Below, one piece after another: positions 46 through 13,437 of a stretch of DNA of 32,413 bases (position 1 is its first letter; each line of letters starts with the position of its first letter). This DNA comes from an uncultured Clostridia bacterium (GTDB taxonomy: Bacteria > Bacillota > Clostridia > Oscillospirales > Ruminococcaceae), in the NCBI GenBank assembly GCA_947629785.1, contig CANRFB010000027.1, positions 1 to 32,413 of the forward strand, in the 5' to 3' direction. The position numbers were made by a program, and so were the translations under genes. The notes beneath the pieces were generated by a model. It was not told where the DNA came from. It did no database searches and saw only the letters and a list, made by a program, of their open reading frames with translations.

Positions 46-56
46 GATTAGGCTTG

Positions 57-80
57 TGACCCGTACGGGAATCGAATCAA
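57..80 (-). other. Attachment core: 3' fragment of a tRNA gene
   Basis: Read on the minus strand this contains TTCGATT (T loop), CCCGT (T stem), ACGGGTC (acceptor strand) and A (discriminator), which is the 3' end of a tRNA. The bases before the T loop do not pair with CCCGT, so no full tRNA is present. A short tRNA 3' fragment is the usual trace left at the distal end of an element integrated into a tRNA gene. The tRNA identity cannot be told from this piece. Confidence 0.6.
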
Positions 81-89
81 GCCTTTCGC

Positions 90-154
90 ATTTTGTATCT
101 TTCGGTAACTTGCCACAAACCGCTATTCTACGCGGTTTGTGAAAGATACAAAAT
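90..154. repeat. Long bulged inverted repeat at the left element end
   Basis: ATTTTGTATCTTTC (90-103) pairs perfectly with 141-154, and ACAAACCGC (115-123) with 132-140. The unpaired 104-114 forms a bulge. The inner stem resembles the hairpins at 13-42 and 12434-12463. It lies between the tRNA fragment and the arm-type repeats, so a role in the recombination complex or as a transcription barrier is possible. Confidence 0.6.
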
Positions 155-191
155 TTCTGTCTTTTAGTAATTTGTCCTAACTTTTCATATC

Positions 192-213
192 AATAAGTCC
201 CAAATAAGTCCCA
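192..213. repeat. Left arm-type integrase sites (2 x AATAAGTCCCA)
   Basis: Two perfect tandem copies of AATAAGTCCCA. The same pair, with one change in the second copy, lies just downstream of the integrase at 12384-12405 in the same orientation. Paired 10-12 bp direct repeats near both ends are typical of arm-type sites for tyrosine integrases. Confidence 0.65.
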
Positions 214-241
214 TACCATTGGATATTTCTGCTTACAAATT

Positions 242-280
242 AACGGTATCAGCGCAAGTCGGCGTTGATACCGTTTTATT
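242..280 (+). terminator. Hairpin terminator
   Basis: AACGGTATCA (242-251) pairs perfectly with TGATACCGTT (266-275) and is followed by a T-rich run on the plus strand. No plus-strand gene ends here. It may insulate the element from transcription entering from the left. Confidence 0.5.
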
Positions 281-317
281 TAGGATCAAACACAGTAAAA
301 CAAGAAGGACCGACAAG

Positions 318-355
318 AAACCGGCAAACAGCTTTTTAATTCTGTTTGCCGGTTT
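318..355 (-). terminator. Operon terminator
   Basis: A perfect 14-bp stem, AAACCGGCAAACAG (318-331) with 342-355, has a 10-nt loop. It lies 10 bases after the stop of the DUF1893 gene, the last gene of the minus-strand operon. T runs are present on both strands, so it may act in both directions. Confidence 0.75.
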
Positions 356-364
356 TGATTCAGT

Positions 365-895
365 TCAAGTATTCTGTAAAATTAATTTTAATTTGTTTTT
401 CAACACCGTTAAAGCCTCTTTGGGATCTGAAATATTTTTAACCGTTTCTTCCATGGGACATATCCCGTCACCATTTCTGTTGATGATATTTTGCGTAAGT
501 TCATCATATTCGTAAGAAATATTGTAATTTTTGAAAACTTCCGCAGCCGTTTCGCTTATAACAGGGGAATAAACTGCTTTCACTCCGAGGATAACATAAA
601 GCATTGCCGCAGCTTTCCCTACAATTTTATCTGCTGCGCTGAAACCTTTCATATCCGTATGATTTTCGATAAATTCAATCAGCGGTTTTATCCCGCGTTC
701 CGTGCTCTTAATACTGATTCCTCATTAAAGTGTAGACAAAAAATCTGCGCAAAAACACATATATGCAAGTTTTTGCTTGATTTTTTGTACACTTTATAAT
801 CGGAATCAGTATAAAACTATCTCTCCGCGGCACAGGACGCAGGTATCACCGTAAGTTTCCATTATTTCTTTTGCTTTTTGCAGATCACTTTTCAT
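365..895 (-). pseudogene. DUF1893-family protein, split by a palindromic insertion
   Basis: The N-terminal part (895 to about 813) reads MKSDLQKAKEIMETYGDT, then CVLCRGEIV. The C-terminal part (about 710 to 365) reads KSTERGIKPLIEFIE, then GFSAADKIVGKAAAMLYVI and NGDGICPMEE, the hallmark segments of DUF1893. Between them lies a 102-bp palindrome (711-812). Removing exactly 102 bp rejoins the halves in frame with the usual family spacing and gives a protein of about 142 aa. As it stands, the first half stops at a TGA inside the insertion. A shorter product could start at the ATG at 652 but would lack about one third of the domain. The ATG at 895 overlaps the stop of the ECF gene. The family's biochemical role is not established. 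Confidence 0.85.
711..812. mobile_element. MITE-like palindromic insertion (102 bp)
   Basis: The ends ATACTGATTCC (711-721) and GGAATCAGTAT (802-812) are perfect inverted repeats. Complementarity continues inward through AAAGTGTA/TACACTTT and GACAAAAAATC/GATTTTTTGT to a central GCAAAAAC/GTTTTTGC. Nearly the whole unit is therefore one long stem with no coding capacity, which fits a miniature inverted-repeat element moved in trans. A TAA flanks both sides if the ends are taken as 712 and 811, but then the host gene would not rejoin in frame, so the target duplication is unresolved. Confidence 0.8.
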
Positions 896-1451
896 GCTTT
901 TTCAGATCCTCAACACGGTAAACTATCAGCGGGAGAAGTACCCATTGAAGTGCTATTCCGAAAAGTCCCGCTGTAATACTTGTCCAAATAGAAGCAATGC
1001 GGACACTTTCATTTCCTAAAAGATAAACAGCTGTAATAATTGCAACCGCACGAACTGCACGTCCCGAAATCTGCGATATGATAACTTTTCCGAAAGTCGG
1101 AATTTTTGCGTTGCGGAGAAGTCCTGCGGAAAGTCCGTAACCGCAAAGTTCTATCATCATAAAGGGAAGCATTGCCGCACCGGGCATTCCCGAAAGTGCA
1201 AAACTTGCAAGAGGTCCTAAAAGTCCTGCGATCGCTCCTGCATAAGGTCCTGCAAGAAGTCCTACAAGAATTATCGGTAAGTGCATTGGCAGGAATGCTT
1301 CGCCAAGTGATGTTCCAAGTCCCGACGCTGCACCTAAAACGTGAAATACCTGCGGAACTGCCACTGCTCCGATAATTGCAGCAAGTGCCGCAAGAGTTTG
1401 TACCTTTACCGAAAGGCGGGGTTTTTCCATAGTCTGAATTGCTGTTGACAT
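885..1451 (-). CDS. ECF-type transporter S component
   Basis: This 188-aa protein is almost entirely hydrophobic, with about six membrane segments and the S-component-like stretch FLPMHLPIILVGLLAGPYAG followed by a GPLASFALSG loop. S components bind a vitamin or metal-type substrate and dock onto a shared EcfT/EcfA energy module. No module genes are nearby, as is common for group II systems. The substrate is not evident. The flavoprotein-rich operon makes a flavin or flavin precursor an attractive guess, but no riboflavin-binding signature is clear. It lies between the permease gene and DUF1893, whose ATG overlaps this stop. Confidence 0.75.
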   Translation of the reverse strand: MSTAIQTMEKPRLSVKVQTLAALAAIIGAVAVPQVFHVLGAASGLGTSLGEAFLPMHLPIILVGLLAGPYAGAIAGLLGPLASFALSGMPGAAMLPFMMIELCGYGLSAGLLRNAKIPTFGKVIISQISGRAVRAVAIITAVYLLGNESVRIASIWTSITAGLFGIALQWVLLPLIVYRVEDLKKHEK

Positions 1452-1472
1452 ATTTTTCGCTCCTTTTTTATT

Positions 1473-2390
1473 TTATATAATGATATTTACAAACAAACCG
1501 GTTACAAGGGAAAATATCATTACAAAAGCTATGTAAATAATAAATCGTTTTAGTCCGAGAACGATTTTAAGCGCGCCTAAATTGGTGATTTTCGTGGCAG
1601 GTCCTGTAATCATAAAAGCCGACGCGCTGCCCATACTCATTCCCATTGCAAGCCATTCGCGGATAAGAGGTATCGTTCCGCCGCCGCAGGCATAAAGGGG
1701 AACACCTATCGTTGCCGCCATAAGCACGCCGAATCCCTCGTTTGATTTTCCGAAAAGTTCCGCAAAATCATCTGCGGGAACATATCTTTGAAACAGTGCT
1801 GAAAGCAGAACTCCCAAAAGAAACCACAATGCCGTTGCTTTTATATTTCTGCCTAAATTAAACAGAAAACGCAGGAACAGATTGGGGTTCGTATCGTGAC
1901 TTGCCCGCGGTTCAAAACCGTCAAAATTGAAAAACGGTTTGTCCTTATAGAAAATATGCACCACAATTCCTGCAATAATTCCGCACAATGTGCAGGAAAT
2001 TATTCTTATTGCAAGAGCAGTTCCGCCAAGGGCAGTGGAATACATAATAAGCTGCGGATTCAGCAAAACACTTGACATCATAAATGCCGCAAGCCAATCG
2101 TGGCGCATACCGTGTTTTGAAAATGACGCTGCAATTGGTATTGTTCCATACATACAAAGGGGAGAAGTAATCCCCAGAATACTTGCGGGGATAACGCCCC
2201 ATATGCCCCATTTTTTATTGCGGATACGGTCAAAAGCGTTGTGAATAGTGTCTTTTGCAAACACAGACACCAGCGAGCCTATCACCATTCCAAGTGCCCA
2301 ATAGCCCGCTATCTGCCGCAGCTGCACCATGAAATAGTAACTTATATACACAAATTCACGGTGCAGAACGTCAAACACTTCATTCATCAA
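1473..2390 (-). CDS. ArsP/UPF0718 (DUF318)-family permease
   Basis: This 305-aa polytopic membrane protein has two homologous halves. The first carries GITSPLCMYGTIPIAASF and SSVLLNPQL. The second carries GVPLYACGGGTIPLIREW and AFMITGPATKITN. These paired motifs mark the UPF0718/ArsP permeases, some of which export methylated arsenicals. Cysteines sit in both motif loops. Its start overlaps the end of the DUF362 gene by 11 bases, which suggests translational coupling. No ArsR, ArsC or other arsenic gene is nearby, so an arsenic role is not supported here, and the operon suggests another small-molecule substrate. Confidence 0.8.
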   Translation of the reverse strand: MMNEVFDVLHREFVYISYYFMVQLRQIAGYWALGMVIGSLVSVFAKDTIHNAFDRIRNKKWGIWGVIPASILGITSPLCMYGTIPIAASFSKHGMRHDWLAAFMMSSVLLNPQLIMYSTALGGTALAIRIISCTLCGIIAGIVVHIFYKDKPFFNFDGFEPRASHDTNPNLFLRFLFNLGRNIKATALWFLLGVLLSALFQRYVPADDFAELFGKSNEGFGVLMAATIGVPLYACGGGTIPLIREWLAMGMSMGSASAFMITGPATKITNLGALKIVLGLKRFIIYIAFVMIFSLVTGLFVNIII

Positions 2391-3474
2391 TGCTCACCAA
2401 ATTATAAGTGCGGCTGCCAAGACCGATTTCCTCGGCGTGTTCAAGTGTATGCAGACCGTTGCGGGATTCGATTCGCTTTACAAGAGAAGCACCGTCACCG
2501 TCTTTCTGTTCGTAAACAAGATCAATGCACGCCTGATCCAGTGCCACGGGATCCGTTGATGCAAGAATGCCAATATCGTGCATATCCGGCTCGGCGGGGT
2601 TGCCGTCGCAGTCGCAGTCCACGGACAGGCGGTTCATCACATTGACATAAACGATCCGTTCACCGTTTTCAAGATAATCTGATACCGACTTTCCGGCTTC
2701 CGCCATAGCTTCTAAAAATGCGTCCTGCTCGCCGCCCCACATACTGCCGCCTGTTCCGCCGCTGTGGATCCAAGCCTTTCCCTCGCTTGATCCAAGTCCG
2801 ATAGAGATATTCTTGATCGCTCCTCCGTAACCTGCCATAGCATGACCTTTGAAATGCGACAGAACAAGATAGGAATCATAATCTCCAAACGCCGCACCAA
2901 CATAATTTTCCGTCAGCACACTGCCGCCCTCAACAGGCAAAGTCATTGAGCCGTTTTCATCAAGTATCTGAAAATCTGCGATCTCGGTAAAACCGTGATC
3001 CTCCGCTACCTGATAGTGCATGGCTGTTTCTGAACGTGAACCGCCGTATGCGGTATTGCATTCAACGATAGTTCCGTCAACAGCCTCTACTACATCTTTA
3101 ATAAGCTGCGGATCAAGGTAGTTGCTTGCAGGCGGTTCGCCGGTAGATAACTTTACGGCTACTTTTCCGGTTGGTGTCCAGTCAAGTGCTTCATACACCG
3201 ACATCAGTCCTTCGGGAGATATGTCGGACGTCATGTAAACGGTAGGAATATCGGAATTTGTCTGACTGTCTGACGTGGTAATGCTGTTCTGACTGTCGAT
3301 TGGATCATCGTTCTTTTTTGAATCGCTGACGGACAGAGCAACGTTATGCGATGTCTGATCCTTATTTTCCAAGCCGACTGTTGTCGGTTCGTTCTGTGTG
3401 CCGCAGCCTGTTAATAACGTTGGCAGCAACAGTAACGTAAAGAAAACCGATAAAAACCTTTTTTTCATACTCAT
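2380..3474 (-). CDS. DUF362-domain lipoprotein
   Basis: The 364-aa protein begins with a lipoprotein signal peptide: KKR, a hydrophobic core and the lipobox LTGC with the lipidated Cys24. A Ser/Asn/Asp-rich linker runs to about residue 75. The DUF362 domain follows, with GGSRSETAMHYQVAEDHGF, LSHFKGHAMAGYGGAIKN, DCDCDGNP and GILASTDPVALDQACIDLV. DUF362 proteins are often linked to [4Fe-4S] ferredoxin domains, but no such motif is visible here. It should sit on the outer face of the membrane. The start has AAGGAGAC just upstream; the Met at residue 3 is an alternative. Exact function is unknown. Confidence 0.85.
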   Translation of the reverse strand: MSMKKRFLSVFFTLLLLPTLLTGCGTQNEPTTVGLENKDQTSHNVALSVSDSKKNDDPIDSQNSITTSDSQTNSDIPTVYMTSDISPEGLMSVYEALDWTPTGKVAVKLSTGEPPASNYLDPQLIKDVVEAVDGTIVECNTAYGGSRSETAMHYQVAEDHGFTEIADFQILDENGSMTLPVEGGSVLTENYVGAAFGDYDSYLVLSHFKGHAMAGYGGAIKNISIGLGSSEGKAWIHSGGTGGSMWGGEQDAFLEAMAEAGKSVSDYLENGERIVYVNVMNRLSVDCDCDGNPAEPDMHDIGILASTDPVALDQACIDLVYEQKDGDGASLVKRIESRNGLHTLEHAEEIGLGSRTYNLVSIDE

Positions 3475-3486
3475 GTCTCCTTGTTT

Positions 3487-4020
3487 TTATAATTTTTTGC
3501 CTAATTCATACGCCATTTGAAGATATTTTGAACGCTCTGTCATAGACGGCGTTCCGCAGCCTTTGCCAAGAACCGTTCCCATATCGGTCAGATTTAAATA
3601 CCGTACAAGCGTCCTGTAATTTGACAAAAGCGATTCAAAAGTCCAATCATCGGCGTTCCACGCTACCGCAATAAGTGCAGACTTCATGTGCTTTCGCTGA
3701 ATACTGCTGTTAAATGCACAGAAACGGTCTATCATGGTTTTAAGTTGCGCGCTCATTCCGTAATAATAAAGCGGCGTGACAAAAACCATCATATCGGAAT
3801 CAAGAATTATTTTGCGTATATTTTCAACATCGTCTTTCTGCGAGCAAGGTCCTTCATATCCGCATTTTACACAGCCTGTGCATGGGTGAATATTTGCATG
3901 GGCAGTGTCTATCACTTCTATATTATGTCCTGCCTCTTTTGCGCCGCGGATAAATTCCTCCGCAAGCATATTTGACGAACCGTGTTTGTTCGGACTTCCC
4001 TCAATAACTGCAATTTTCAT
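3487..4020 (-). CDS. NAD(P)H-dependent FMN reductase / iron-sulfur flavoprotein-like
   Basis: This 177-aa protein of the FMN-reductase flavodoxin fold begins MKIAVIEGSPNKHGSSN, the phosphate-binding loop for FMN. A compact cysteine cluster, C47-x2-C50-x2-C53-x5-C59, resembles the [4Fe-4S] motif of archaeal iron-sulfur flavoproteins, and TPLYYYGMSAQLKTMIDR is the usual second FMN motif. I chose the ATG at 4020 because it forms an ATGA overlap with the preceding stop; an upstream ATG at 4035 would add five residues. It probably moves electrons between NAD(P)H or ferredoxin and the operon's flavoproteins in the cytoplasm. Confidence 0.85.
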   Translation of the reverse strand: MKIAVIEGSPNKHGSSNMLAEEFIRGAKEAGHNIEVIDTAHANIHPCTGCVKCGYEGPCSQKDDVENIRKIILDSDMMVFVTPLYYYGMSAQLKTMIDRFCAFNSSIQRKHMKSALIAVAWNADDWTFESLLSNYRTLVRYLNLTDMGTVLGKGCGTPSMTERSKYLQMAYELGKKL

Positions 4021-4493
4021 AATGTTTCCACCCACTTCTTTAATTCATTTTCTTCAAATTTTCCGTTGAGCATTCTGCCGTCCGTGATCTTTACATCAGC
4101 CGCAACGGAATTTTTTAATCCTGCGGCTGTTTTTCCTAAACCGCTGCCGCCCGATGTGGCGAAAAGAACTATTTTCTTGCCCGAGAAATCATAGCTTTCA
4201 AGAAAAGTGTTTATGATCGTCGGCGCGGAATACCACCATATCGGAAAGCCAAGCAGAATTATTTCATGTCCTGCAATATCGGCGTTTTTGTCCGCAAGTT
4301 CGGGACGGCTTGATCTGTCGTTCATTTCAACAGAACTGCGGGACTTCTTATCCATCCAGTTCAGGTCTGCCTGTGTATAAGGAACGGAAGGTCTTATTTC
4401 GTAAATATCTGCATTTGCGGCATCGGCAAGTTTTTTTGCTGCCTTGGCAGTAACTCCACTTGCAGAAAAATAGGCTACTAAAATTTTGCTCAT
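4017..4493 (-). CDS. Flavodoxin (cytoplasmic)
   Basis: This is a 158-aa flavodoxin. MSKILVAYFSASGVTAKAA is the FMN phosphate loop, then come SRSSVEMNDRSSRPEL, GFPIWWYSAPTIINTFLE and FATSGGSGLG. There is no signal peptide. I chose the ATG at 4493 for its GAGAGG ribosome site and 15-base gap after the aldo/keto reductase stop; the upstream ATG at 4529 lies inside that gene. It is closely similar in motifs to the lipoprotein flavodoxin at 7691-8569, so the operon holds both inside and outside versions of the same carrier. Confidence 0.88.
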   Translation of the reverse strand: MSKILVAYFSASGVTAKAAKKLADAANADIYEIRPSVPYTQADLNWMDKKSRSSVEMNDRSSRPELADKNADIAGHEIILLGFPIWWYSAPTIINTFLESYDFSGKKIVLFATSGGSGLGKTAAGLKNSVAADVKITDGRMLNGKFEENELKKWVETL

Positions 4494-4507
4494 GTCTGTT
4501 TCCTCTC

Positions 4508-5449
4508 TTATTTCATTTCTTTTTCCCAACCACGGATAACATTCAGTTTATACCGATCCGCAGCGTCTTCAATCGCTTTTATCTCATCGGCAGTAAGTTC
4601 CAGCGCGGCTGCTTTTGCAGCGTCCTCTGCTTGTGAAGCCTTAGTAACACCGATTATGGGAAGTGTTCCTTTTGCAATTGCCCATGCAATGGGGATCTGT
4701 GCCGTGCTTACACCGTGCTTTTGGGCAATTTCTTTCATCACTGCTACAATTTTTTCGATCTGCGGCAGGAGAGGATTATAGGTTCTTCCTCTGTCGGAAT
4801 TTTCGGGAAGAGGGTTGGAAGTGCTGTATTTTCCTGAAAGTGCTCCCTGTTCAAGAACCATATAGGAAAAGAATGTGATCCCATTTTCTTTGCAGTAATC
4901 AAGTATTCCCGAATCCTCCGATGAACGGTTCAGAATACTGTAATGATTCTGTATCGCAGAAATTTTCAATCCCTCGTTTTCAAGAATGGCAGCAGCTTCT
5001 TTGATTTCGGCAAGGTTGTGATTTGAAAGTCCGATATGTCCGATCTTTCCGCTTTTGGCAAGAGGAATAAGTTCTTTTATCCACTTCGGAGCGCCCACAG
5101 GATTGTGTATCCAGTAAAAGTCCATATAGTCGGTGCCAAGCAGTTCCGCACTTGTGTTGAACATTTCCACAACTGCATTTTCCGATTTCGGATCTGCACA
5201 TTGAGGTGTAAACTTAGCAGAAATATAATAGCTGTCTCTCGGTACGGTGCGCAGAAATCCGCCTAAAATTTTTTCGGAAGTCCCCATGCCGTAAACAAAA
5301 GCTGTATCCCAGAGATTGAGTCCCGCTTTCATAGCAGTGTCAAAAACAGGGCGAAGCTCATCGGCGGTAAGTGTTCTGCCGAATGTTCCGTCATTGCCCC
5401 ACGCCCATGCGCCAAGTGCGATTTTTGGAAATTTTTCGTTTTTATCCAT
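4508..5449 (-). CDS. Aldo/keto reductase
   Basis: This 313-aa protein has the full AKR catalytic tetrad: D48 and Y53 in LWDTAFVYGMG, K79 in SAKFTPQ and H115 in YWIHNP. GLSNHN and the C-terminal IPIAWAIAKGTLPIIGVTKA are typical of the NADPH-binding barrel end. It reduces aldehydes or ketones with NAD(P)H; the substrate cannot be told. AGGAGG lies just before the ATG. The gene follows the fusion gene by 20 bases and precedes the flavodoxin by 14, so it is part of the operon. Confidence 0.9.
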   Translation of the reverse strand: MDKNEKFPKIALGAWAWGNDGTFGRTLTADELRPVFDTAMKAGLNLWDTAFVYGMGTSEKILGGFLRTVPRDSYYISAKFTPQCADPKSENAVVEMFNTSAELLGTDYMDFYWIHNPVGAPKWIKELIPLAKSGKIGHIGLSNHNLAEIKEAAAILENEGLKISAIQNHYSILNRSSEDSGILDYCKENGITFFSYMVLEQGALSGKYSTSNPLPENSDRGRTYNPLLPQIEKIVAVMKEIAQKHGVSTAQIPIAWAIAKGTLPIIGVTKASQAEDAAKAAALELTADEIKAIEDAADRYKLNVIRGWEKEMK

Positions 5450-5469
5450 TTTAATATCCTCCTGAATAT

Positions 5470-6720
5470 TTATTGATTTTCAGCCGTTATGTTATTTAAA
5501 TTCAGCCATTCTGCAATATCGTCAGGCAGGCTGCTGCCGCCGGAATAATGTACCGATAATCCCTCTCCCATGACCGCATCGGGTGCAAGCTTTGCAATTG
5601 CCGTAAGGCTCTGTCCGAAACGTCCGCCGCCGTGAGAGCAGAACGGAATGATAGTTTTGTCCGAAAAGTCGTATTCCTCTAAGAAAGACGCTATCGGCAT
5701 GGGAATTGATGCCCACCAGTTGGGATAGCCGAGAATTACAGTGTCATACTGTTCAAAATTTTCGACTTTATTTTTTATTTCCGGTCGCGCCTGAATGTTC
5801 TGGTCTTGCTGCGCCTGATCGAGTACGGTGTTGTAGTCATCGGAATATGGAGTAACAAGCTCGATCTCAAACAGGTCAGCACCTGTCTGTGACTGAATTT
5901 CCTCAGCAATGCCCCTTGTGTTGCCGCCCCAAGAGAAGAATGCGATCAGCACCTTGCCGTCAGTGCTGTTCTCTCTGTCTTTCTCTGCGCTGACAATATT
6001 TCCTGCGCCATTTACGGCATTTCTTACAAGCCGTATGCCGAGGTTGAAACTGCCCTTGTCCTCCGGCAAAGCGGCACGGTAAGCGGAGCGCATATTTTTG
6101 GCAAAATCATTCCAACCGCCGCCGCGGTAAACGCGCCGTGTTCCGCTCTCCGGACCTGTAGGATCGACCTCATTTGCCGTGCTATATTCGCCGTAGAGAT
6201 CCCACACCCACTCGCTGACGTTGCCGTGCATATTGTACAGTCCGAACCCGTTGGGAGAAAAGCTGTCCACCGCGACCGTGGTCTGACGGTATTCGCCGGG
6301 TTTAGTTGTGAGATTTCCTTGTGAAAAATAGTTGTCCTCTATTTCATAAGGGTAATGTCCGTAATAGTTGGATTCCTCCGGACTTATGGAGGTTTCGGTG
6401 TTGAACGGCGTTGTCGTTCCCGCGCGGCAGGCGTACTCCCACTCTGCCTCGGTCGGCATACGATAGCCGTTCGCGCTCCTGTCCCATGTGACAGTTTTTC
6501 CGTCAATGGTATAAACGGGCGTAAGGTTTTCTTTCTCGCTCAGAGCATTGCAATATGCTGCTGCGTCAAGCCACGAAACGTTTTCCACCGGCAGATCGTC
6601 TCCGTCAAAATTCGAGGGATCATTGCCCATAACTTCGGCATATTCGCTTTGCCGAACTTCATAGGGACTCATATAAAAATCGCTTACCGTTACGGTATGA
6701 AGCGTTTCGTCCGCAGAACG
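5470..6720 (-). CDS. SUMF1-like plus flavodoxin part of the interrupted DUF4405 fusion protein
   Basis: This is the continuation of the gene at 6721-7689 after an in-frame TGA. The reading frame resumes directly with RSADETLHTVTVSDFYMSPY, and the first ATG in it is at 6672, with no good ribosome site. Residues to about 218 complete a SUMF1/FGE-like domain (GYRMPTEAEWEYACRAGTT, GLYNMHGNVSEWVWDL, YRGGGWNDFA). The paired cysteines of true formylglycine-generating enzymes are absent, so sulfatase maturation is unlikely. From about residue 235 a flavodoxin domain follows (KVLIAFFSWGGNTRG, GYPNWWASIPMPIASFLE, FCSHGGGRFG). The topology of the N-terminal part would place both domains outside the membrane. 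Confidence 0.75.
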   Translation of the reverse strand, partial: RSADETLHTVTVSDFYMSPYEVRQSEYAEVMGNDPSNFDGDDLPVENVSWLDAAAYCNALSEKENLTPVYTIDGKTVTWDRSANGYRMPTEAEWEYACRAGTTTPFNTETSISPEESNYYGHYPYEIEDNYFSQGNLTTKPGEYRQTTVAVDSFSPNGFGLYNMHGNVSEWVWDLYGEYSTANEVDPTGPESGTRRVYRGGGWNDFAKNMRSAYRAALPEDKGSFNLGIRLVRNAVNGAGNIVSAEKDRENSTDGKVLIAFFSWGGNTRGIAEEIQSQTGADLFEIELVTPYSDDYNTVLDQAQQDQNIQARPEIKNKVENFEQYDTVILGYPNWWASIPMPIASFLEEYDFSDKTIIPFCSHGGGRFGQSLTAIAKLAPDAVMGEGLSVHYSGGSSLPDDIAEWLNLNNITAENQ

Positions 6721-7689
6721 TCACGGTTCGTCAGAAGGACTTCCCATTTCAAAACTGCCGCCCTTAATAAACACAAAGCCGTCCTCTATGGGTTGGGTTT
6801 GCAGATCGGACTGAACGATTTCCGAAGAAGTTTCCGTATTTTGGGATATATCCTTTGCTGTGCTTTCCGTTTCGTTTGAAATGCTTTCCTCAGACTGCTT
6901 TGAGGAATTTGCCTGCCAAGGAGCATTTTGCGCAGGCACTTTCAAACCGACTGCTACAATAACACAGGCAAGTACCGGTATCACAAAAGCTACAGCTTTG
7001 TGTATACGTCCGTCTGACTGTTTATTACCGAATTTGCAAAGCAGCTTATTTATATAATGCGCCGCCGCTGCGAACAGACACATCATTGCAATGGTTTCGG
7101 CAAAATACACGACCGCCGTTTTCGTCTCGTCAAACATCACGAAATGCGTCTGCAAAAACAGATAGCTCGGTATCTGCTGCGTGAAAAACGCGAAAACGCC
7201 ATACCCCGCCGCCAGTGCCGCAAGACTGCGCAGTACCCACGTCCTCGCGGCGTTCTTTTCGGAAAGATGAAACAGCTTTCTGCCAAGTCCGAAGAACTGC
7301 TCCATATGCAGACCGAGGTGCGCCGACATCAGGATAAATCCCCAATACGATGCGAACAGGTGAAGCTGCCGCGCCAAAATCATACCGCCGCTGATGTGCA
7401 GAAAGCTGAACACAAATCCCGACATCATAACGCCGCTTGCGAAAAGCGCCGCCATATCAAGCAAAAGCAGCAGGTCAACCGCCGTCCCGAACGCGCGGGA
7501 GGGATTGTATTTGCCTTTGGTGAAACTTTTCCACCAACCAAAATTCAAAATATGGTGCGTAATAAATAACGCCAACATAGCAGTTCCGAGCCATTCATGG
7601 CACTTTTGCCCCGTGAGTATCTCCATCATCAGAAGCGGCAGAAGCACGATCATGGCAAGGTCAACTATACGTTTTACGATCTGTTTCAT
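6721..7689 (-). CDS. DUF4405 membrane anchor part of the interrupted SUMF1-flavodoxin fusion
   Basis: The 322 residues hold about seven membrane helices (near 10-27, 34-50, 70-96, 108-128, 150-169, 191-212 and 231-249). Membrane-placed histidines H31, H45, H46, H110, H124 and H128 resemble a b-type haem-binding four-helix cytochrome as in DUF4405. A Ser/Gln/Glu-rich linker (250-302) leads into the start of a SUMF1 domain, FVFIKGGSFEMGSPSDEP, then TGA at 6721-6723. The family normally has Trp there (EPWR), so TGG to TGA is the simplest explanation. The base after the stop is C, a leaky UGA context. The start follows the upstream flavodoxin stop by one base. Confidence 0.8.
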   Translation of the reverse strand: MKQIVKRIVDLAMIVLLPLLMMEILTGQKCHEWLGTAMLALFITHHILNFGWWKSFTKGKYNPSRAFGTAVDLLLLLDMAALFASGVMMSGFVFSFLHISGGMILARQLHLFASYWGFILMSAHLGLHMEQFFGLGRKLFHLSEKNAARTWVLRSLAALAAGYGVFAFFTQQIPSYLFLQTHFVMFDETKTAVVYFAETIAMMCLFAAAAHYINKLLCKFGNKQSDGRIHKAVAFVIPVLACVIVAVGLKVPAQNAPWQANSSKQSEESISNETESTAKDISQNTETSSEIVQSDLQTQPIEDGFVFIKGGSFEMGSPSDEP

Positions 7690-7690
7690 A

Positions 7691-8569
7691 TCAGTTCACA
7701 CCCAGATCGTTTGCCCACTTCATCACGTCATCAGCAGAAGCATCGGCAGGGAAACGGCGTCCGTCAAGCCAATCAGCATCGCTTGCGGCAGATCGGAGTG
7801 CCGAATCGCTGCTGCCGAATCCGCTGCTTGCAGAAGTGCAGAACGCCGCCAAAGTCTTGCCGGAGAAATCATAGCTTTCGATAAATGTACTCATGATACG
7901 CGGCGCTTCGCCCCACCATATGGGGTAGCCTATAAGCACTACATCGTACTGCTCCATATTTTCCACTGGACCGGAGATCGCAGGACGAGCGCTTGGATCG
8001 TTCATTTCCACAGTCGAACGGCTGTTGGGATCGCCATAGTCAAGGTCAGCGTCCGTATAAGGCTGTTCCGGAATTATCTCATAGAGCTCAGCGCCAAGTC
8101 CGCCGGCGAGTTTTTGAGCAATGCCCTCGGTGTTGTTGGTAGCCGAAAAATATGCTACAAGTATTTTTCCGCACTCATCGCTGCTTGTTTCGGGAGCAAA
8201 AATTTCTGCGAAATTTGAAGTTTCTGCGGAATTTGCAGTTTCTGCGGAAGTTTCGCTTTCTGTTTTTGCTGCTGTCTCTGACGGTGCGGATATTTCGGAA
8301 CTTTCCGTACTGCTTTCAACGTCCGTTATTTCAGAAGAAGATGCCTGAGAAATTTCTGTAATACTTTCACTTTCATCTGTTTCAGAGGACAAAGATGTCT
8401 GAACAGCTTCTGCACTGCTTTCGTTTTCCGCTGTTACAGAGGATAAAGATGTCTGAACAGATTCCGTGCTTTGTGATCCAACATTTGTGTTGTCATTCCC
8501 CGCGCAAGCGGTAAAGCACATCGACATAACAGCCGCTGAAATAATAATTAAAAACTTTTTCATTTTCAT
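7691..8569 (-). CDS. Flavodoxin lipoprotein
   Basis: The 292-aa protein starts MKMKKFLIIISAAVMSMC and has the lipobox FTAC with Cys22. A Ser/Glu/Thr-rich linker with internal repeats (about 25-120) acts as a tether. The flavodoxin domain follows: GKILVAYFSATNNTEGIAQK, SRSTVEMNDPSARP, GYPIWWGEAPRIMSTFIE and SSGFGSSDSALR. It should be an FMN protein anchored outside the membrane. I chose the ATG at 8569 for the AAAGGAAG site just upstream, though the next Met two codons later is possible. The operon follows without a gap into the DUF4405 gene. Confidence 0.88.
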   Translation of the reverse strand: MKMKKFLIIISAAVMSMCFTACAGNDNTNVGSQSTESVQTSLSSVTAENESSAEAVQTSLSSETDESESITEISQASSSEITDVESSTESSEISAPSETAAKTESETSAETANSAETSNFAEIFAPETSSDECGKILVAYFSATNNTEGIAQKLAGGLGAELYEIIPEQPYTDADLDYGDPNSRSTVEMNDPSARPAISGPVENMEQYDVVLIGYPIWWGEAPRIMSTFIESYDFSGKTLAAFCTSASSGFGSSDSALRSAASDADWLDGRRFPADASADDVMKWANDLGVN

Positions 8570-8622
8570 AAATTTCTTCCTTTCGGTGTTTTGTAAAACG
8601 TTCAAATCGTTTTATGTCCTCC

Positions 8623-9165
8623 TTATTTTTTGAACGTAAGGCATTTTCCTATAACATCGCCTGTTTTTAAGTATTGATAAGTCGGAAATTCAAAGAGCAC
8701 AGGTCTCAGAGTGTTGTAATTTATTTTCCCGTCAGTATCAAGGTGTTTTTCGTCAACATAGGTGTTGTCTATCGTGCAGATAAAGCTTTCAAAATTCGGC
8801 GTTTCGTAAATATCAACAACGCTGCACTCTATTGTAAGAGGGGAAGCCGTTACGATAGGTGTTCCCGAGTCGCCGAGTACAAATTCAAAAACACCGGATT
8901 TATCGGTTTTATTTCCGCTGACCGAACCTATATAGTCCGCTTTCGGCAGCATGGCTTCGTCCACAAGGTTGATAGAAAGTTTTTTCGCCGTCTTAATGCA
9001 CCCGTTAATAAAATGCGGCGCAGCAAGGCTTACCATAACACGGTCATGCCCGATGATCCCAAGATGACCGACAAGCGTCCAAGTCGGCTTATCGCCGTTC
9101 ATTGCGCCTATAACCGTGATAGGCATGGGATAAAGAGCAAGTTTAGAGCCTATATTCTTTTTCAT
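8623..9165 (-). CDS. Flavin reductase-like FMN-binding protein
   Basis: This 180-aa protein of the flavin-reductase split-barrel family starts KLALYPMPITVIGA, with later HFINGCIKTAKKLSINLV and GKCLTFKK. Members bind FMN and often reduce free flavins with NAD(P)H. It is the first gene of the operon, with GGAGG eight bases before its ATG and a strong regulated promoter above it. In context it may supply reduced flavin to the flavodoxins or the extracytoplasmic carrier chain; that is inference. Confidence 0.85.
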   Translation of the reverse strand: MKKNIGSKLALYPMPITVIGAMNGDKPTWTLVGHLGIIGHDRVMVSLAAPHFINGCIKTAKKLSINLVDEAMLPKADYIGSVSGNKTDKSGVFEFVLGDSGTPIVTASPLTIECSVVDIYETPNFESFICTIDNTYVDEKHLDTDGKINYNTLRPVLFEFPTYQYLKTGDVIGKCLTFKK

Positions 9166-9189
9166 GATAATTACCTCCGATATTTATTA

Positions 9190-9239: not shown

Positions 9240-9290
9240 TATAATATTGTAAAATTTACCTTTTTAAAACAAAAAGTTCACATAAAAATA

Positions 9291-9325: not shown

Positions 9326-9400
9326 AAAGTATGGGCAGGAGTCATTTTACTGTTTTAGTTATGATATAACCTCATTGAAATTGTGCAGAGCATATCATAT

Positions 9401-9607
9401 TTATGTATTCTCATTCTGCTTTTTAAGTTCTTTCGCTAAATCCTGCAAGTCCTGACACGCATCAAAGCACATCTGATCATAACGGTCAATATCGTCAGCA
9501 TTGCTGCGAGAGGTAAGACATTTTTTAAAGTATACACTTTCCGAAAAATCAACAGTAACACCTACCGAAGCGCTCTCTCCGCACTTTTCAAACAAATCGT
9601 TCATCAC
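9401..9607 (-). CDS. Small acidic hypothetical protein
   Basis: This 68-aa protein, MMNDLFEKCGESASVGVTVD onward, has several cysteines and a charged C-terminal helix (DACQDLQDLAKELKKQNE). No family is recognised. Support comes from a strong promoter (9667-9695) with a consensus -35, an AAGGGG site before the double ATG and a terminator at 9291-9325, which together make a complete single-gene unit. It lies between the cargo operon and the excisionase and points the same way as the cargo. Confidence 0.65.
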   Translation of the reverse strand: MMNDLFEKCGESASVGVTVDFSESVYFKKCLTSRSNADDIDRYDQMCFDACQDLQDLAKELKKQNENT

Positions 9608-9666
9608 AAATCTGCCCCTTTCCGAATTGAGTAAAACAAAAATGTTCCAAAAAATTTTATAGATTT

Positions 9667-9695
9667 ATTCTATCACTTTTTGCACGTTTTGTCAA
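9667..9695 (-). promoter_or_regulatory. Promoter of the small hypothetical gene
   Basis: TTGACA (9695-9690) and TAGAAT (9672-9667) are 17 bases apart on the minus strand. The spacer contains one copy of TTTTTGCACGT (plus strand 9677-9687), repeated at 9728-9738 within the divergent excisionase promoter, so one regulator may control both. Confidence 0.7.
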
Positions 9696-9719
9696 TATAA
9701 AATACGGAATTAAACGAGT

Positions 9720-9749
9720 TTGTATCATTTTTGCACGTATAGGTATAAT
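9720..9749 (+). promoter_or_regulatory. Promoter of the excisionase operon
   Basis: TTGTAT (9720-9725) and TATAAT (9744-9749) are 18 bases apart, with TTTTTGCACGT in the spacer. It is divergent from the promoter at 9667-9695. Confidence 0.5.
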
Positions 9750-9863
9750 GAAGTTTATGAAACAAATTTAATACGTTCAAAACGGCGTTTTCGGAAAAAA
9801 GTGCGCTATAATTTGGACAGGCTCGGAGATACAGAGCCGAAAATTAAAACGGAGGTGCTGAAA

Positions 9864-10082
9864 ATGAACAGCAAAGAAAATCTGCCGATGATGTTATCGG
9901 CGAACGAGATCCAGACAATGGGATTCACGAGGAATATGGCATATAGCATACTTGACCGTGAGGACGTTCCCGTTGTGAAGATCGGCAGTCGAAAATTTAT
10001 TCAGAGGGATAAATTTTTCGAGTGGCTTGACAGCAGAGAAGCAAGCAAAGACGAAAAAACTAACAGGAGGGACAAAAGATGA
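9864..10082 (+). CDS. xis: Excisionase-like DNA-binding protein
   Basis: This 72-aa protein has a winged-helix excisionase pattern: LSANEIQTMGFTRNMAYSIL, then VVKIGSRKFIQRDKFFEWLD, with a basic tail. Such small proteins bend attachment-site DNA and steer a tyrosine integrase toward excision. The start at 9864 is set by GGAGGTG at 9851-9857; an open frame runs further upstream but lacks a ribosome site. Its stop overlaps the next gene's ATG (ATGA). It lies 1.1 kb before the integrase on the same strand. Confidence 0.75.
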   Translation: MNSKENLPMMLSANEIQTMGFTRNMAYSILDREDVPVVKIGSRKFIQRDKFFEWLDSREASKDEKTNRRDKR

Positions 10083-10399
10083 AAACTGAAAATCTTGCAT
10101 TTAACAAACAAAGTGCAAACATTTCAAAACCGCCAAAACCGAAACGCTCCGATACGGACAGGCTGAAAGAATGTTACGATCAGCAGAAAAAACTTCTGGA
10201 ACAGCAGACTGCCGCAAGGAAAAAGAGCAAGGACATTGAAAAGCGCATTTCAGACAATAACGCCAAAATCGCGGAACTGGAAAACAAGGAATTTTTCAAG
10301 ATTTGCAGAGAAAAGAAAATCTCTACACAGGAACTCATAGCGTTTTTGAAAAAAATCCCCAAAAATGTTTCTTTTGAAAATCTTAACGCAGGAGGATAA
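10079..10399 (+). CDS. Small coiled-coil protein (DUF4315-like)
   Basis: This 106-aa protein is Lys/Glu-rich, with a predicted coiled coil over about 28-72 (DQQKKLLEQQTAARKKSKDI onward) and the end KKISTQELIAFLKKIPKNVS. The overall plan resembles the small DUF4315-type proteins common on Clostridia mobile elements, but the match is weak. It overlaps the excisionase stop and is followed after 5 bases by the next gene, so the three are probably co-transcribed. Confidence 0.65.
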   Translation: MKTENLAFNKQSANISKPPKPKRSDTDRLKECYDQQKKLLEQQTAARKKSKDIEKRISDNNAKIAELENKEFFKICREKKISTQELIAFLKKIPKNVSFENLNAGG

Positions 10400-10404
10400 C
10401 GACA

Positions 10405-10950
10405 ATGAACGAAAAGATGATGACAGTTAAAGAGTATGCAGACCAACAGCACGTTTCTCGTCAGTCGGTCAATTCTAAAATCAACCGACACAAGGAAGAA
10501 TTGAAAAACCATATCTGCACGGAGAACGGCAAAAAAGTCCTTGACAGGTTTGCGCAGGAGTTTCTGAAACCCACAAAGGGCAATGTCCTGCTTATCAACA
10601 AAAATGCCGATTTAGAGAAATCTCTTGCAATTGAAAAAAGTGAAAGCAAGCAGAACAAAGCACTTGCCGAAAGTCAAGAAAACATGGCAAAGAGCTTTGG
10701 TTACGAACTTAAAATTAAAAATAAGGTTTTTCAAGATTATGTGAGAATTATGAAAGAAATGGAGAAGTGCATTATTGAACAAAATGCCGTCATCGCCCAA
10801 AAGGACGAGCGCATAGCCGAACTTACAGCTAAAGCTGTGGCGTTTGAAAATTTTGCGGAACGGCTTGATAAGCTGTTTGCACTTTTTGAGGATAACGCTA
10901 ATATTGGCATTGTTCAGAAAGTCGCATCGGGACTGTTTGGCAAGAAGTAA
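10405..10950 (+). CDS. HTH plus coiled-coil protein of the integrative element
   Basis: This 181-aa protein starts with a DNA-binding helix-turn-helix, MTVKEYADQQHVSRQSVNSK. A long coiled coil (about 68-150) and a C-terminal segment ending KVASGLFGKK follow. HTH-plus-coil proteins of this shape occur on plasmids and small integrative elements as replication or partition accessory factors. No named function can be assigned. GGAGG precedes the start by 10 bases. Confidence 0.65.
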   Translation: MNEKMMTVKEYADQQHVSRQSVNSKINRHKEELKNHICTENGKKVLDRFAQEFLKPTKGNVLLINKNADLEKSLAIEKSESKQNKALAESQENMAKSFGYELKIKNKVFQDYVRIMKEMEKCIIEQNAVIAQKDERIAELTAKAVAFENFAERLDKLFALFEDNANIGIVQKVASGLFGKK

Positions 10951-11006
10951 ACGCATTGCTTGAATGACGTTTACAAAAGAGGGGTTCTTTATTATAGCAA
11001 GCGCAG

Positions 11007-11048
11007 AAAAGTCATATGACTTTTCAAAATTTAGGGTAGTTTCCCTAA
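11007..11048. promoter_or_regulatory. Palindromes upstream of the integrase promoter
   Basis: AAAAGTCATATGACTTTT (11007-11024) is a perfect 18-bp palindrome. TTAGGG (11031-11036) pairs with CCCTAA (11043-11048) as a second short dyad. They lie about 45-85 bases before the integrase -35 and could bind the element's regulator. Otherwise the 215-base gap holds only the promoter. Confidence 0.45.
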
Positions 11049-11089
11049 GACCTGATAACAAAAATCTTTGACATATTTCTAAAAACTTC

Positions 11090-11118
11090 TTGACTTTACA
11101 ACGAAGAAGCGGTATAAT
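11090..11118 (+). promoter_or_regulatory. Integrase promoter
   Basis: TTGACT (11090-11095) and TATAAT (11113-11118) are 17 bases apart, 48 bases before the integrase ATG. AGGAGG follows at 11151-11156. Confidence 0.8.
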
Positions 11119-11165
11119 AGAAGTGCAGAAATATGCCAATGGTCAGATTAAGGAGGTTGACCTGA

Positions 11166-12368
11166 ATGGCATCTATCGAAAAAAGAGGAAACTCTTACAG
11201 AATAAAAGTATCCTGCGGTTACAAAGCAGACGGGAAACAAGTTACTCAGAAAATGACTTGGACTCCCGAAACCAATATGACGGAAAAGCAAATTGAAAAA
11301 GAACTGCAAAGACAAGCTGTTCTTTTTGAGGAAGATTGCAAAAAAGGACAGATAGTTTCTGCCGTAAAGTTTGAAACTTTTGCCGAAGAGTGGTTTGAGG
11401 AGTACGCAAAATTAAACCTTAAAAGCACAACTTACACGAGGCAAAGACAATTGACAAAGCGTGTATATGCCGCTATCGGTCATATTCGTCTTGACAAGCT
11501 TACAACACGTGAGATACAGAAATTTATCAACAGTCTTGCAAAGGACGGAGTAAACGAAAGAACGGGCAAGGCGTTATCGAGAAAAACAATGGTCCATTAT
11601 CTTTCGTTCATTTCAACGGTAATTGATTTTGCGGTAAAAATGGATATGCTCAGCGATAATCCTTGCAGACGAGTGTCGATTCCAAAGGGTTCAAAGAAAG
11701 AGCGGAAAATTCTCACAATTGAAGAAACGGAGAAATTCTTTGAACTTCTGAAAACAGCACCGCTTAAATATCAGGCGTTTTTCATTTTAGATATTTACAG
11801 CGGACTAAGACGAGGAGAAATGTTGGGTTTGGAGTGGAAAGACATTGATTTTCAGACCGGAGTAATACACGTTCAAAGAACGTCAAATTACACCAAAGCA
11901 CGGGGAATTTACACCGATACAACAAAAACAGAAAGCTCTGTACGATATGTGAAAGTACCAATGGAAATAGTGGAACTCCTCAGATCATACAAAGCAGAGC
12001 AAGACCAAGAAAAAGCCGAAGTAGGGGACAAGTGGTACGAAAACGACAGGCTTTTTGTAAAATGGGACGGACAGCCCATGAATCCGCAAACGCCATACGG
12101 CTGGTTAAAAGAATTTTGTGAGAAAAACAAATTCCCATTTTATGGAATACACCAATTTCGGCACTTGCATACCAGTCTTTTGATCGGAGCAGGGATAGAC
12201 CCGACCACGGTATCGGGAATATTAGGACACTCGCAGGTATCAACGACTTTGAACCTGTACAGTCATATGTTCCGGGAAAATCAGATAAGGGCTGCCGATG
12301 CAGTTGCAAATGCGCTTAGTTTTACAAAAAAGAACGACGTAAATATCGTTATGCACAAGACAGGATAA
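11166..12368 (+). CDS. int: Tyrosine site-specific integrase
   Basis: The 400-aa protein has an N-terminal arm-binding domain (1-60, GNSYRIKVSCGYKADGK), a SAM-like core-binding domain (about 70-165) and a catalytic domain with the full set R215, K254, H329, R332, H355 and Y365. It catalyses integration and excision of the element at 57-12479. AGGAGG lies 9 bases before the ATG. The two arm-type repeats follow its stop by 16 bases, placing the gene at the right end as is usual. Confidence 0.95.
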   Translation: MASIEKRGNSYRIKVSCGYKADGKQVTQKMTWTPETNMTEKQIEKELQRQAVLFEEDCKKGQIVSAVKFETFAEEWFEEYAKLNLKSTTYTRQRQLTKRVYAAIGHIRLDKLTTREIQKFINSLAKDGVNERTGKALSRKTMVHYLSFISTVIDFAVKMDMLSDNPCRRVSIPKGSKKERKILTIEETEKFFELLKTAPLKYQAFFILDIYSGLRRGEMLGLEWKDIDFQTGVIHVQRTSNYTKARGIYTDTTKTESSVRYVKVPMEIVELLRSYKAEQDQEKAEVGDKWYENDRLFVKWDGQPMNPQTPYGWLKEFCEKNKFPFYGIHQFRHLHTSLLIGAGIDPTTVSGILGHSQVSTTLNLYSHMFRENQIRAADAVANALSFTKKNDVNIVMHKTG

Positions 12369-12383
12369 GTTACGGAAAGATAA

Positions 12384-12405
12384 AATAAGTCCCATATAAG
12401 TCCCA
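12384..12405. repeat. Right arm-type integrase sites
   Basis: AATAAGTCCCA (12384-12394) and TATAAGTCCCA (12395-12405) stand in tandem just after the integrase stop. They match the pair at 192-213 at the far end of the element, in the same orientation. Confidence 0.65.
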
Positions 12406-12422
12406 AAGCCTGTTTTTAGGGT

Positions 12423-12464
12423 AAAAACAAAATCAGCAAACCGCGTACCTACGCGATTTGCTGA
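12423..12464 (-). terminator. Hairpin direct repeat, copy 2; likely terminator on the minus strand
   Basis: A perfect stem: CAGCAAA...TTTGCTG with inner CGCGTA/TACGCG. On the minus strand it is followed by ATTTTGTTTTTA, a good intrinsic terminator for the serine recombinase gene, whose stop codon (12433-12435) lies inside the 3' edge of the stem. It repeats 4-45 with two differences. Confidence 0.7.
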
Positions 12465-13437
12465 GAATTTGACTGGTGACGCAACTATCGACTAAGTCGA
12501 AATCGTTCAACACCTCTGAATTTTTCTCTATCTCTCGAATGTCTTTGAGGGAAACCGTCTTATTCTTATTTCCCATATTGAAAAATAATATCATTCTGTC
12601 GTCATACAGATATACACGGTTCACGAATATATTTATTAAATGATACCGCGCTTTAGGATCGCATATATCAAGTCCCGCAAGCTCCGTCAACCAAGATTCT
12701 ATTTGCGGAACTGTCGGTATGCGCCGTTCGTCAATGCGCGCTAATTCAAGTTCGTCAAGAATTTCATCTTCTTGCTTTTGAAGTGCTTCAAGCTTGGCCA
12801 TAAGCGCACGGTTTCCGGTCTCGGCTATCATGTCAACAACGTTCTCGATCTTGTACCGGACAGCTTTCAAACGTTTTTCAATGTCCTTTATGCCGGAATC
12901 TCCAAATGATTTTTTGAACGCATCGACAATCATTTTCGCGACGTCGTGTTTTGAATCCTCGCCGGTAACAAGGGAAAGAACTGTCTCGCATATGTACCAT
13001 TCAACGAAGTCTTTCCGCTCCGTCTTTTTTGGACAAGCTTTTTTCCGCTTGTGGTTTGAACAGGCATAATAATTATAAACCTTGTCGTTCGTGCCGTGGC
13101 CGCTTTCGCCGATCATCAGCGCGCCGCATTCACCGCAGTAAAGTTTTCCGGAAAGCAGATAGTCAACCTTTGCCGCTGCTCTTGCAGGAGCGCGCTTGTT
13201 TTCTGCAAGACGCCGCTGCACAACGTTAAACGTCTCTTTGTCAATGATCGCGGGACAGCCGCCGTCTATTTTTATTTCGCCCTTTTCGTCATTGTAATGC
13301 AGCACGCCTATGTATTTTTCGTTCGTAAGGATATGATCAAGACTCGACATTTTGAATTCACCGCCGAAACGCGTTTTATATCCTTTTGAATTCAGTGCGG
13401 CGGCAATTTCAGTTTTACTTTTGCCGTTTGCATACAT
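12433..13437 (-). pseudogene. Large serine recombinase, C-terminal fragment
   Basis: This 334-residue fragment carries the recombinase domain (GKSKTEIAAALNSKGYKTRF, ILTNEKYIGVLHY), the zinc ribbon CGECGALM...YYACSNHKRKKAC and a coiled-coil segment (about 185-230). It continues the catalytic fragment at 13439-13984 and is separated from it by one extra base in A6 at 13441-13446. With five bases the join reads PKLIFEMYANGK, which fits the family. The last residues (VTSQILSKSRRYAVC) are coded by the hairpin and attachment region, so the C-terminus may differ from that of the free phage. Confidence 0.85.

Follow-up and report, generated by a model that had tools for sequence, protein, structure and literature searches.

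The DNA under study, hereafter the window, is the entire contig C27 (32413 bases) of an uncultured Clostridia bacterium whose genome amounts to 3.05 Mb in 162 contigs; positions 58 to ~12480 of this contig are a tyrosine-integrase element targeted to tRNA-Glu(TTC), which has matching arm repeats at either end and encloses a redox operon (Table 1). Repeats of the 11-bp unit AAGTCCCA stand in pairs at 192-213 and 12384-12405, and the double repeat ATAAGTCCCAWATAAGTCCCA is found exactly at 193-213 and 12385-12405 only; allowing up to 3 mismatches reveals no other site in the window, and 100 shuffles gave none. At 58-76, GACCCGTACGGGAATCGAA is the reverse complement of a tRNA 3' end, and these 19 bases recur within the intact tRNA-Glu(ttc) on contig C40; in the window itself no tRNA gene is recognised by ARAGORN. 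Ten open reading frames (ORFs) for flavoproteins and transport (885-9165) and a DUF1893 ORF (365-652), all on the minus strand, are enclosed between the ends, and the integrase gene (11166-12368, Phage_integrase, PF00589) is situated at the right. A preliminary description of this DNA had proposed a tRNA-targeted element with redox cargo running from 57 to 12479. The tandem repeats inside both ends, the tRNA fragment at the left and the integrase at the right are borne out, as is the overall anatomy; the bounds are not, since 12479 is a prophage junction rather than a clean element end and bases 1-57 are the right end of a neighbour. Nor does the element stand alone, being part of a tandem array.

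The tRNA-Glu site and its tandem array

The 19-base tRNA sequence recurs in nine copies on nine contigs of the genome, and one of the nine sits inside a recognised tRNA. On C55, C88, C56, C91 and C114 the junctions between elements can be read directly: the right end of one element, with its arms and hairpin, is followed by the attachment core and then by the left end of the next element, which carries different arms. Bases 1-57 of the window are the same type of right end, from another element of this family. In the usual order of an array member, as we picture it, a copy of the tRNA 3' end would be followed by two 11-bp arm units ~113 bp inside the left end, accessory cargo and the integrase gene, then by two further arm units behind that gene and finally by a hairpin that would replace the terminator of the tRNA, the IntTn916-type tyrosine integrases of these elements presumably inserting at the 3' end of tRNA-Glu(TTC). 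Of 28 left ends (those found across the loci and distinct in their first 60 nt, with tandem units sought from 60 nt on), 22 have an 11-bp unit in tandem at a distance of 110-116 nt from the core and 6 have none, and a hairpin-like repeat is seen by eye at the terminator position in other elements too.

Related integrases adjoin the same tRNA in other Ruminococcus-type genomes. An integrase scan of genome contigs gave 52 loci, mostly in Ruminococcus, Oscillospiraceae and Clostridia metagenome-assembled genomes (MAGs) and also in R. flavefaciens YAD2003 and R. bicirculans 80/3; the tRNA-Glu 3' sequence is present at 30 of these loci, in 18 cases with the remainder of tRNA-Glu (recognised by its anticodon-arm motif), and tRNA-Glu was confirmed by ARAGORN at all four loci submitted (L196, L204, L206 and L211). 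Six relatives (L192-L197), with full-length integrases 85-99% identical, share the arm unit and the attachment sequence; more distant integrases adjoin other tRNA-like ends, as judged by eye. In genome G016 an intact tRNA-Glu stands ~110 bp from the end of the integrase gene, and in G001 a 24.3 kb element is flanked by the intact tRNA-Glu on one side and by a repeat of its 3' end on the other. The far flank of the G001 element matches DNA directly abutting tRNA-Glu in G012 and G004 (74% over 192 bp). As for the empty site that was suggested earlier as a check, the flank in these two genomes is itself the end of a serine-recombinase gene; they are therefore sites without the tyrosine element, yet not pristine ones, and were rejected as empty sites.

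Neighbouring array elements appear to carry genes of their own. That of C88 (L043, 632-2452) has apparent mobilization genes and that of C114 (L048, 1335-5202) an apparent restriction-modification-like operon, both named by eye. Paralogous ORFs of ~95 aa, which we take to resemble SpoVG, precede the integrase in groups of two to four on C55 (L044, 2983-4358), C108 (L050), C111 (L051) and C147 (L024). At L226 (9728-11283), a remnant of ~1.5 kb holds the window's left-end sequence, a broken integrase and the tRNA-Glu sequence.

Covariation of arm units and integrase residues

Most integrases of the family are followed to the right by two AA-NNNN-CA units at 11-bp spacing, whose middle bases vary from one integrase to another. 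The best sequence matches of the window integrase in the PDB are the Int chains of 6emy and 6en0; Pfam assigns no arm-binding domain to it. The model predicted for residues 1-65 is beta-beta-beta-alpha (strands 3-7, 10-19 and 25-32, helix 40-60; mean predicted local distance difference test score 86, predicted template-modelling score 0.65), and it displays the N-terminal three-strand, one-helix arm-binding domain that is a feature of the IntTn916 subgroup. Because the predicted strands comprise residues 3-7 and 10-19, with the register read from the model, residues 5 and 12 should face each other across a predicted beta-hairpin. In the proposed mechanism, the N-terminal three-stranded sheet would read the arm unit A-A-N-N-N5-N6-C-A, residue 5 (strand 1) specifying N5 and its cross-strand neighbour, residue 12 (strand 2), specifying N6. 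The corresponding rule (v2) runs E-C, R/K-G and Q/S/T-A from residue 5 to arm base 5, and R-C, E-G and Q/S/L-A from residue 12 to arm base 6; the window integrase, with E5 and R12, fits its arm CC. Ordinary side-chain preferences put arginine with G, glutamate with C and glutamine with A, and the pairing of the code agrees with them.

Rule v2 was built with a first set of held-out rows in view and was fixed in writing before a second set was searched in 396 family genomes; the second set alone therefore tests it. This set comprises 23 automatic loci and 60 stretches chosen for a complete integrase, a subset of all matches, and 14 of its 76 rows were dropped as at least 95% identical to earlier rows, leaving 62. 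In the 31 rows with an arm under strict detection, which requires A at position 1 and CA at positions 7-8 and favours that form, the rule gives arm base 5 correctly in 29 of 30 and arm base 6 in 28 of 31; shuffled arms reach means of 17.3 and 19.3 and maxima of 24 and 26. The misses are L314 at both positions and L333 and L380 at arm base 6, with L363 bearing a residue outside the rule. Thinning to 22 rows by arm-binding-domain identity leaves 20/21 and 19/22. For the training rows the scores are 44/48 and 48/48, and for the first held-out rows, which shaped the rule, 5/5 and 4/4.

Across 48 of the 56 aligned integrases, those assigned an arm by eye, arm distance correlates with arm-binding-domain distance given the catalytic part (partial Mantel r 0.41, 0/2000 permutations); the other way round, with the catalytic part tested given the arm-binding domain, the value is 0.10 (12/2000). 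Among 388 columns scanned over 61 representatives, residue 5 ranks top for arm base 5 with an excess of 1.13 bits (residue 12 follows at 0.83, then 0.60), and residue 12 ranks top for arm base 6 with 0.87 bits (next 0.67). A tree of the catalytic part shows 13 changes of arm class. The pair L210 and L216 differs within residues 1-62 at Q5K only, is 68% identical elsewhere and carries the arms AAAGAACA and AATGGACA. L177 is an exception, a domain swap in which the arm-binding domain is 98% identical to that of L014 and the remainder 90% identical to L012. Exchanged arm-binding domains are encoded at L177 (4087-4281), where the arm that is kept is unfit for the new domain, and at L216 (10001-10195), with the matching Q-to-K change at residue 5.

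Since the arm bases follow the integrase residues, the repeats are best explained as arm sites of the element's own integrase. It is likely that the arm-binding domain reads the arm by a two-residue code carried on one beta-hairpin, residue 5 to base 5 and residue 12 to base 6; elements stacked at one tRNA would therefore keep private arm sites, each integrase handling its own ends. The dozens of sister integrases with different arm sites constitute a natural experiment on the DNA choice of the arm-binding domain. If the code holds, an integrase sequence would be enough to predict arm sites and with them element ends, an array could be divided into its units, and it would become testable how neighbours at one tRNA stay clear of one another's ends. 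No report of such an integrase-arm code, or of this array, was found in the open-access literature as judged by titles and abstract openings.

The cargo operon and the prophage at the right end

Table 1. Features along the window, with strand and supporting matches.
Feature	Coordinates	Strand	Evidence
Right end (terminator hairpin) of neighbouring tandem element	1-57		Same sequence terminates elements on C88, C55, C56 and C91; 91-95% identity over 74-77 bases
Left attachment core, tRNA-Glu(TTC) 3' fragment	58-76	-	19 bases exact against intact tRNA of C40
Left arm, two 11-bp units AATAAGTCCCA	192-213	+	
DUF1893 (TM1506) ORF	365-652	-	PF08973; 88.6% DNA identity to C39 over 383-706
ECF transporter substrate-binding component	885-1451	-	PF12822; 95.6% DNA identity to C39 over 813-1467
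ArsP-type permease	1473-2390	-	PF03773; 90.4% DNA identity to C39 over 1475-2387
DUF362 protein, lipoprotein-like N-terminus	2380-3474	-	PF04015; lipobox LTGC by eye; 72.7% DNA identity to C39
NADPH-dependent FMN reductase	3487-4035	-	PF03358
Flavodoxin (Flavodoxin_4)	4017-4529	-	PF12682
Aldo/keto reductase	4508-5449	-	PF00248
DUF4405 cytochrome - FGE domain - flavodoxin gene, in-frame TGA at 6721-6723	5470-7689	-	ORFs 6721-7689 and 5470-6672
Lipoprotein-like flavodoxin	7691-8605	-	PF12682; signal by eye
Flavin reductase	8623-9165	-	PF01613
Possible excisionase, small helix-turn-helix (HTH) protein	9861-10082	+	phrog_668, E=7e-4, weak
Two accessory ORFs: DUF4315-like (10079-10399) and 10405-10950	10079-10950	+	PF14193 below cut-off; homologues upstream of G017 integrase
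Tyrosine integrase; arm-binding domain residues 1-62, catalytic domain C-terminal	11166-12368	+	PF00589 (Phage_integrase)
Right arm AATAAGTCCCA TATAAGTCCCA	12384-12405	+	Identical double unit behind integrases 85-99% identical
Terminator hairpin that would serve tRNA-Glu	12420-12466	-	-22.8 kcal/mol, z -6.2, 0/200 shuffles
Right attachment site remnant GACTGGTGAC, the attL of the prophage	12471-12480		
Prophage with serine recombinase, repressor, primase, terminase and portal; runs off contig	12481-32413		

DUF4405 proteins are presented as haem-binding cytochromes in PMC11334425, where, in apbE clusters of Proteobacteria and Firmicutes, they are often found with a flavinylated Flavodoxin_4 gene and a flavin transporter. 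Because DUF4405 cytochromes cluster with Flavodoxin_4 genes, we infer that the cargo is an operon for flavin-based electron transfer, a module that would combine a DUF4405 cytochrome-flavodoxin fusion with reductases, an ECF component and exported flavodoxins; the electron transfer is probably in part extracytosolic. The ten-gene redox operon described previously is recovered by Pfam as ten ORFs, with the qualification that two of them, 6721-7689 and 5470-6672, are a single reading frame split by TGA. A frameshift in the cytochrome gene was ruled out, the interruption being an in-frame TGA, and in G087 the homologue forms a single 731-aa ORF, with tryptophan at the TGA position (alignment by eye).

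To judge by its nearest matches, the operon is a mosaic. The region 383-2387 matches contig C39 of the same genome in three pieces (88.6, 95.6 and 90.4%), and the host operons of C39 and G017:C68 differ about equally over that region (90.5, 93.4 and 94.2%); C39, with a partial copy of the operon, has the order ArsP, DUF362, ECF, DUF1893 and is syntenic with G017 at ~95%. The last three cargo genes are 88-96% identical in DNA to their C39 counterparts, and the last genes would derive from a close relative of the host's C39 operon. Further to the right, 8615-9472 matches G017:C127 at 92% and 9397-9750 matches C58 in two pieces, at 88-90%; for the integrase end the match is to G017 elements (95%), in which the genes just upstream differ in part (these contigs, at <5 kb, are too short to show the cargo). 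The middle, 3400-8620, has no match above 77% in 21 genomes of the genus, its own included, except for stretches of <80 bases.

DUF362 relatives are found in 27 of 120 genomes searched, the host's own included. Twelve operon-bearing stretches, each of 5-20 kb, were read, and 11 are free of any integrase match; in the twelfth, from G107 (L123, G107:C47, 113-15901), the operon (113-5231) lies outside the repeats that bound an integrase element. That the operon might be carried by another element in G107 was considered and rejected, since the integrase there belongs to a prophage between exact 24-base tRNA-Met repeats at 6284 and 15827. Among the 52 integrase loci, with flanks of at most 10 kb and often shorter, only L202 has several redox genes near its integrase, which is truncated; single cargo matches were seen at L200 (a flavin reductase, 27%) and at the far edges of L227 (ArsP) and L235 (an FGE-flavodoxin). 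Similar clusters outside integrase elements indicate that the operon is not special to mobile DNA, and redox cargo looks unusual for this element family. Its rarity, also claimed at the outset, agrees with the few redox genes near the integrase loci, and is tempered by the precedent of a respiratory island carrying vcrABC, as outlined in PMC3146451. Among the 12 stretches read, none shows the operon at this chromosomal place in an integrase-free relative; no wider search was made. At L202 (2045-10121, a Ruminococcus MAG), the truncated integrase is 86% identical to that of the window and adjoins DUF4405, flavodoxin and aldo/keto reductase genes.

As for the small genes to the right of the cargo, the excisionase announced earlier is reduced to a small HTH-like ORF: its phrog_668 match is weak (E=7e-4), the candidate has no NCBIfam match, and the longer ORF 9720-10082 has no Pfam match. 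Pfam scanning of the ORFs of 58-12480 revealed no relaxase.

At the right end only GACTGGTGAC (12471-12480) is retained of the attachment site, and a prophage, in which Resolvase, Recombinase and Zn-ribbon domains as well as phage genes were detected, starts at 12481. The junction of CTGGTGAC with GCAACTAT recurs behind a different element end on C95 and in the MAG contig L234, in the latter behind the C-terminal part of an integrase (residues 333-400) that is 99% identical to the window's. A third serine recombinase stands at the same position on C113 (L259) with other phage-side sequence, and a serine recombinase is also found behind the right end of a tyrosine element at L205 and L221. The serine recombinase of the window is broken into two ORFs (12433-13437 and 13439-13984); its C95 relative is unbroken. 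On C28 the tRNA core is preceded at matching spacing by ACGATTTCGA, the top inverted half-site (18/28, runner-up 16) among 2161 GAC positions scored in six contig stretches, a set that includes the C28 site; C28 probably bears the other half of the split site. C126, guessed by eye to be the far end of the prophage, scored 14/28 against 18/28 for C28 and was rejected. Viral contigs contain three serine-recombinase relatives, at 43-45% only, and no match to the 25-base attP pattern, and all 705 serine-recombinase matches in phage records are <60%. The prophage would have entered the right attachment site later, moving the right core away; the tyrosine element should therefore not excise alone, nor at 57/12479, and it is probably locked until the prophage leaves. 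The nesting of serine prophages suggests that one tRNA end serves two unrelated recombinase families, either of which can lock in the other.

Serine-recombinase genes recur at this kind of tRNA end, either behind tyrosine elements or directly at the tRNA (C95, L173; C113, L259; L205; L221; G012, L161). The reading frame of the serine recombinase crosses its own attachment site in the window (12433-12480), on C95 (L173, 6960-7039) and at L234 (2397-2460), and its last residues vary with the place of insertion (...DSCVTSQILSKSRRYAVC, ...DSCVTSNISRKSFC... and ...NSCVTSLILSKSRRYAIC). A second, Mu-like prophage with transposase A/B-, terminase- and portal-like ORFs (by eye) occupies ~12.2-29.7 kb of C28 (L156, L157), near the probable far end.

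Alternative explanations and known systems

Membership of an array, reading of the arm by two residues, a mosaic electron-transfer cargo and a right end split by a prophage make up a reading to which we assign a probability of roughly 0.84. Several observations weigh against it. The order of the array is unassembled, 5 of the 9 contigs that bear attachment (att) sequences stopping <=0.4 kb from the repeat. On the side of the cargo, the assignment to electron transfer is based on homology, the central fused cytochrome gene is interrupted, and a Pfam search of the operon's proteins gave no ApbE match. The arm code had a forerunner (v1), in which residue 12 alone set both arm bases; it fitted 45 of 48 training rows by eye and was given up after failing in 4 of the 9 held-out rows that could be scored (in the first held-out set of 18 loci, L291, L293 and L302-L304, which are one lineage, were right; L290, L305, L292 and L294 were wrong; L289 had no prediction, L288 and L295-L299 no clear arm, and L300 and L301 no N-terminus). 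A Foldseek search with the arm-binding domain returned no match at E<=0.001. Half of the second set (31 of 62 rows) is without a strict arm, and by eye 18 of these rows fit, 9 are unscorable and 4 contradict the rule, L364 and L365 at both positions and L385 and L386 at arm base 5. Information on the arm is likewise found in many catalytic-domain columns, and the columns that do best for arm bases 3 and 4 belong to the catalytic part, not to the arm-binding domain. Independent switches, counted in the 84 rows with a strict arm out of 128 (56 + 10 + 62), are few: arm 5 = G offers 5 pairs, ~4.8 of them changing the same way (p 0.06), and arm 6 = C offers 6, with 4 the same way and 2 unchanged (p 0.125), none being contrary in either test.

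These last points would suit an explanation in which arm repeats track integrase residues through shared ancestry only, the arm not being read directly: catalytic-domain positions are informative in number, and with so few switches no sign test reaches 0.05. Yet residues 5 and 12 come top of the 388 columns for precisely arm 5 and arm 6, the partial Mantel correlation is 0.41 (0/2000) against 0.10 the other way round, and the arms of L210 and L216 differ with Q5K as the sole difference in residues 1-62, which makes ancestry alone a fairly improbable account. The ends of the window could also stem from two different AAGTCCCA elements, the stretch being a fusion left by a deletion in the array instead of one mobile unit. 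Two integrases of the sister genome G017 are 98-99% identical and have the same right arms, and arrays can therefore hold several such elements; moreover, segments of the stretch have different nearest relatives, and the middle (3400-8620) is the part without a match above 77% in the 21 genomes, bar stretches of <80 bases. Fusion is nevertheless unlikely, given that L226 pairs a left end beginning TCAAGCCTTTCG with a broken integrase of this type (65-83% in pieces) within 1.5 kb, and that the arms at both ends match each other whereas those of the neighbours differ.

An ordinary chromosomal operon lying beside att-like remnants, with nothing that moves, would be in keeping with the relatives that lack an integrase in 11 of 12 stretches, with the synteny between the C39 version and G017, and with a right site split by a prophage; it is very unlikely in the face of an intact integrase ORF, matched arms at both ends, a left attachment core and the ends of further elements, both to the left and within the array, the operon not having been seen at this place in relatives lacking the element. 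Finally, the repeated att sequences might be an artefact of metagenome assembly, a suspicion that 162 contigs, and 5 of 9 att-bearing contigs ending <=0.4 kb from the repeat, naturally invite, but the same integrase-to-tRNA junction is present on long contigs of other genomes (L211, which is R. flavefaciens YAD2003; G001; G016) and tandem fragments are present in other MAGs as well, so that this is extremely unlikely.

The array-member reading places the element among those of an already known kind, namely a mosaic island in a tandem array whose respiratory cargo has precedent. Tandem accretion of integrative and mobilizable elements, cis-mobilizable elements and integrative and conjugative elements, as set out in PMC5704250, likewise stacks several elements in series at one tRNA, each with att copies, and prophages are named there as possible partners; by comparison, the window element has no relaxase ORF, and serine-recombinase elements share and split its tRNA site. 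The vcrABC islands of Dehalococcoides at ssrA are, according to PMC3146451, similar in their ~12 kb size, their integration module and a respiratory operon of discordant phylogeny, and differ in targeting the transfer-messenger RNA gene and carrying a dehalogenase operon. Clusters that join DUF4405 cytochrome and Flavodoxin_4 genes in Firmicutes, including one of Oscillospiraceae, are reported in PMC11334425; the window operon departs from them in being without ApbE, in having DUF4405, FGE and flavodoxin in one (interrupted) frame, and in its DUF362 and ArsP partners. The IntTn916-subgroup elements at tRNA 3' ends, classified in PMC8138268, have the same N-terminal beta-beta-beta-alpha arm-binding domain, catalytic domain and insertion at tRNA; in contrast to these, the arm units of the present family vary among its members on the pattern AA-NNNN-CA and change together with two integrase residues.

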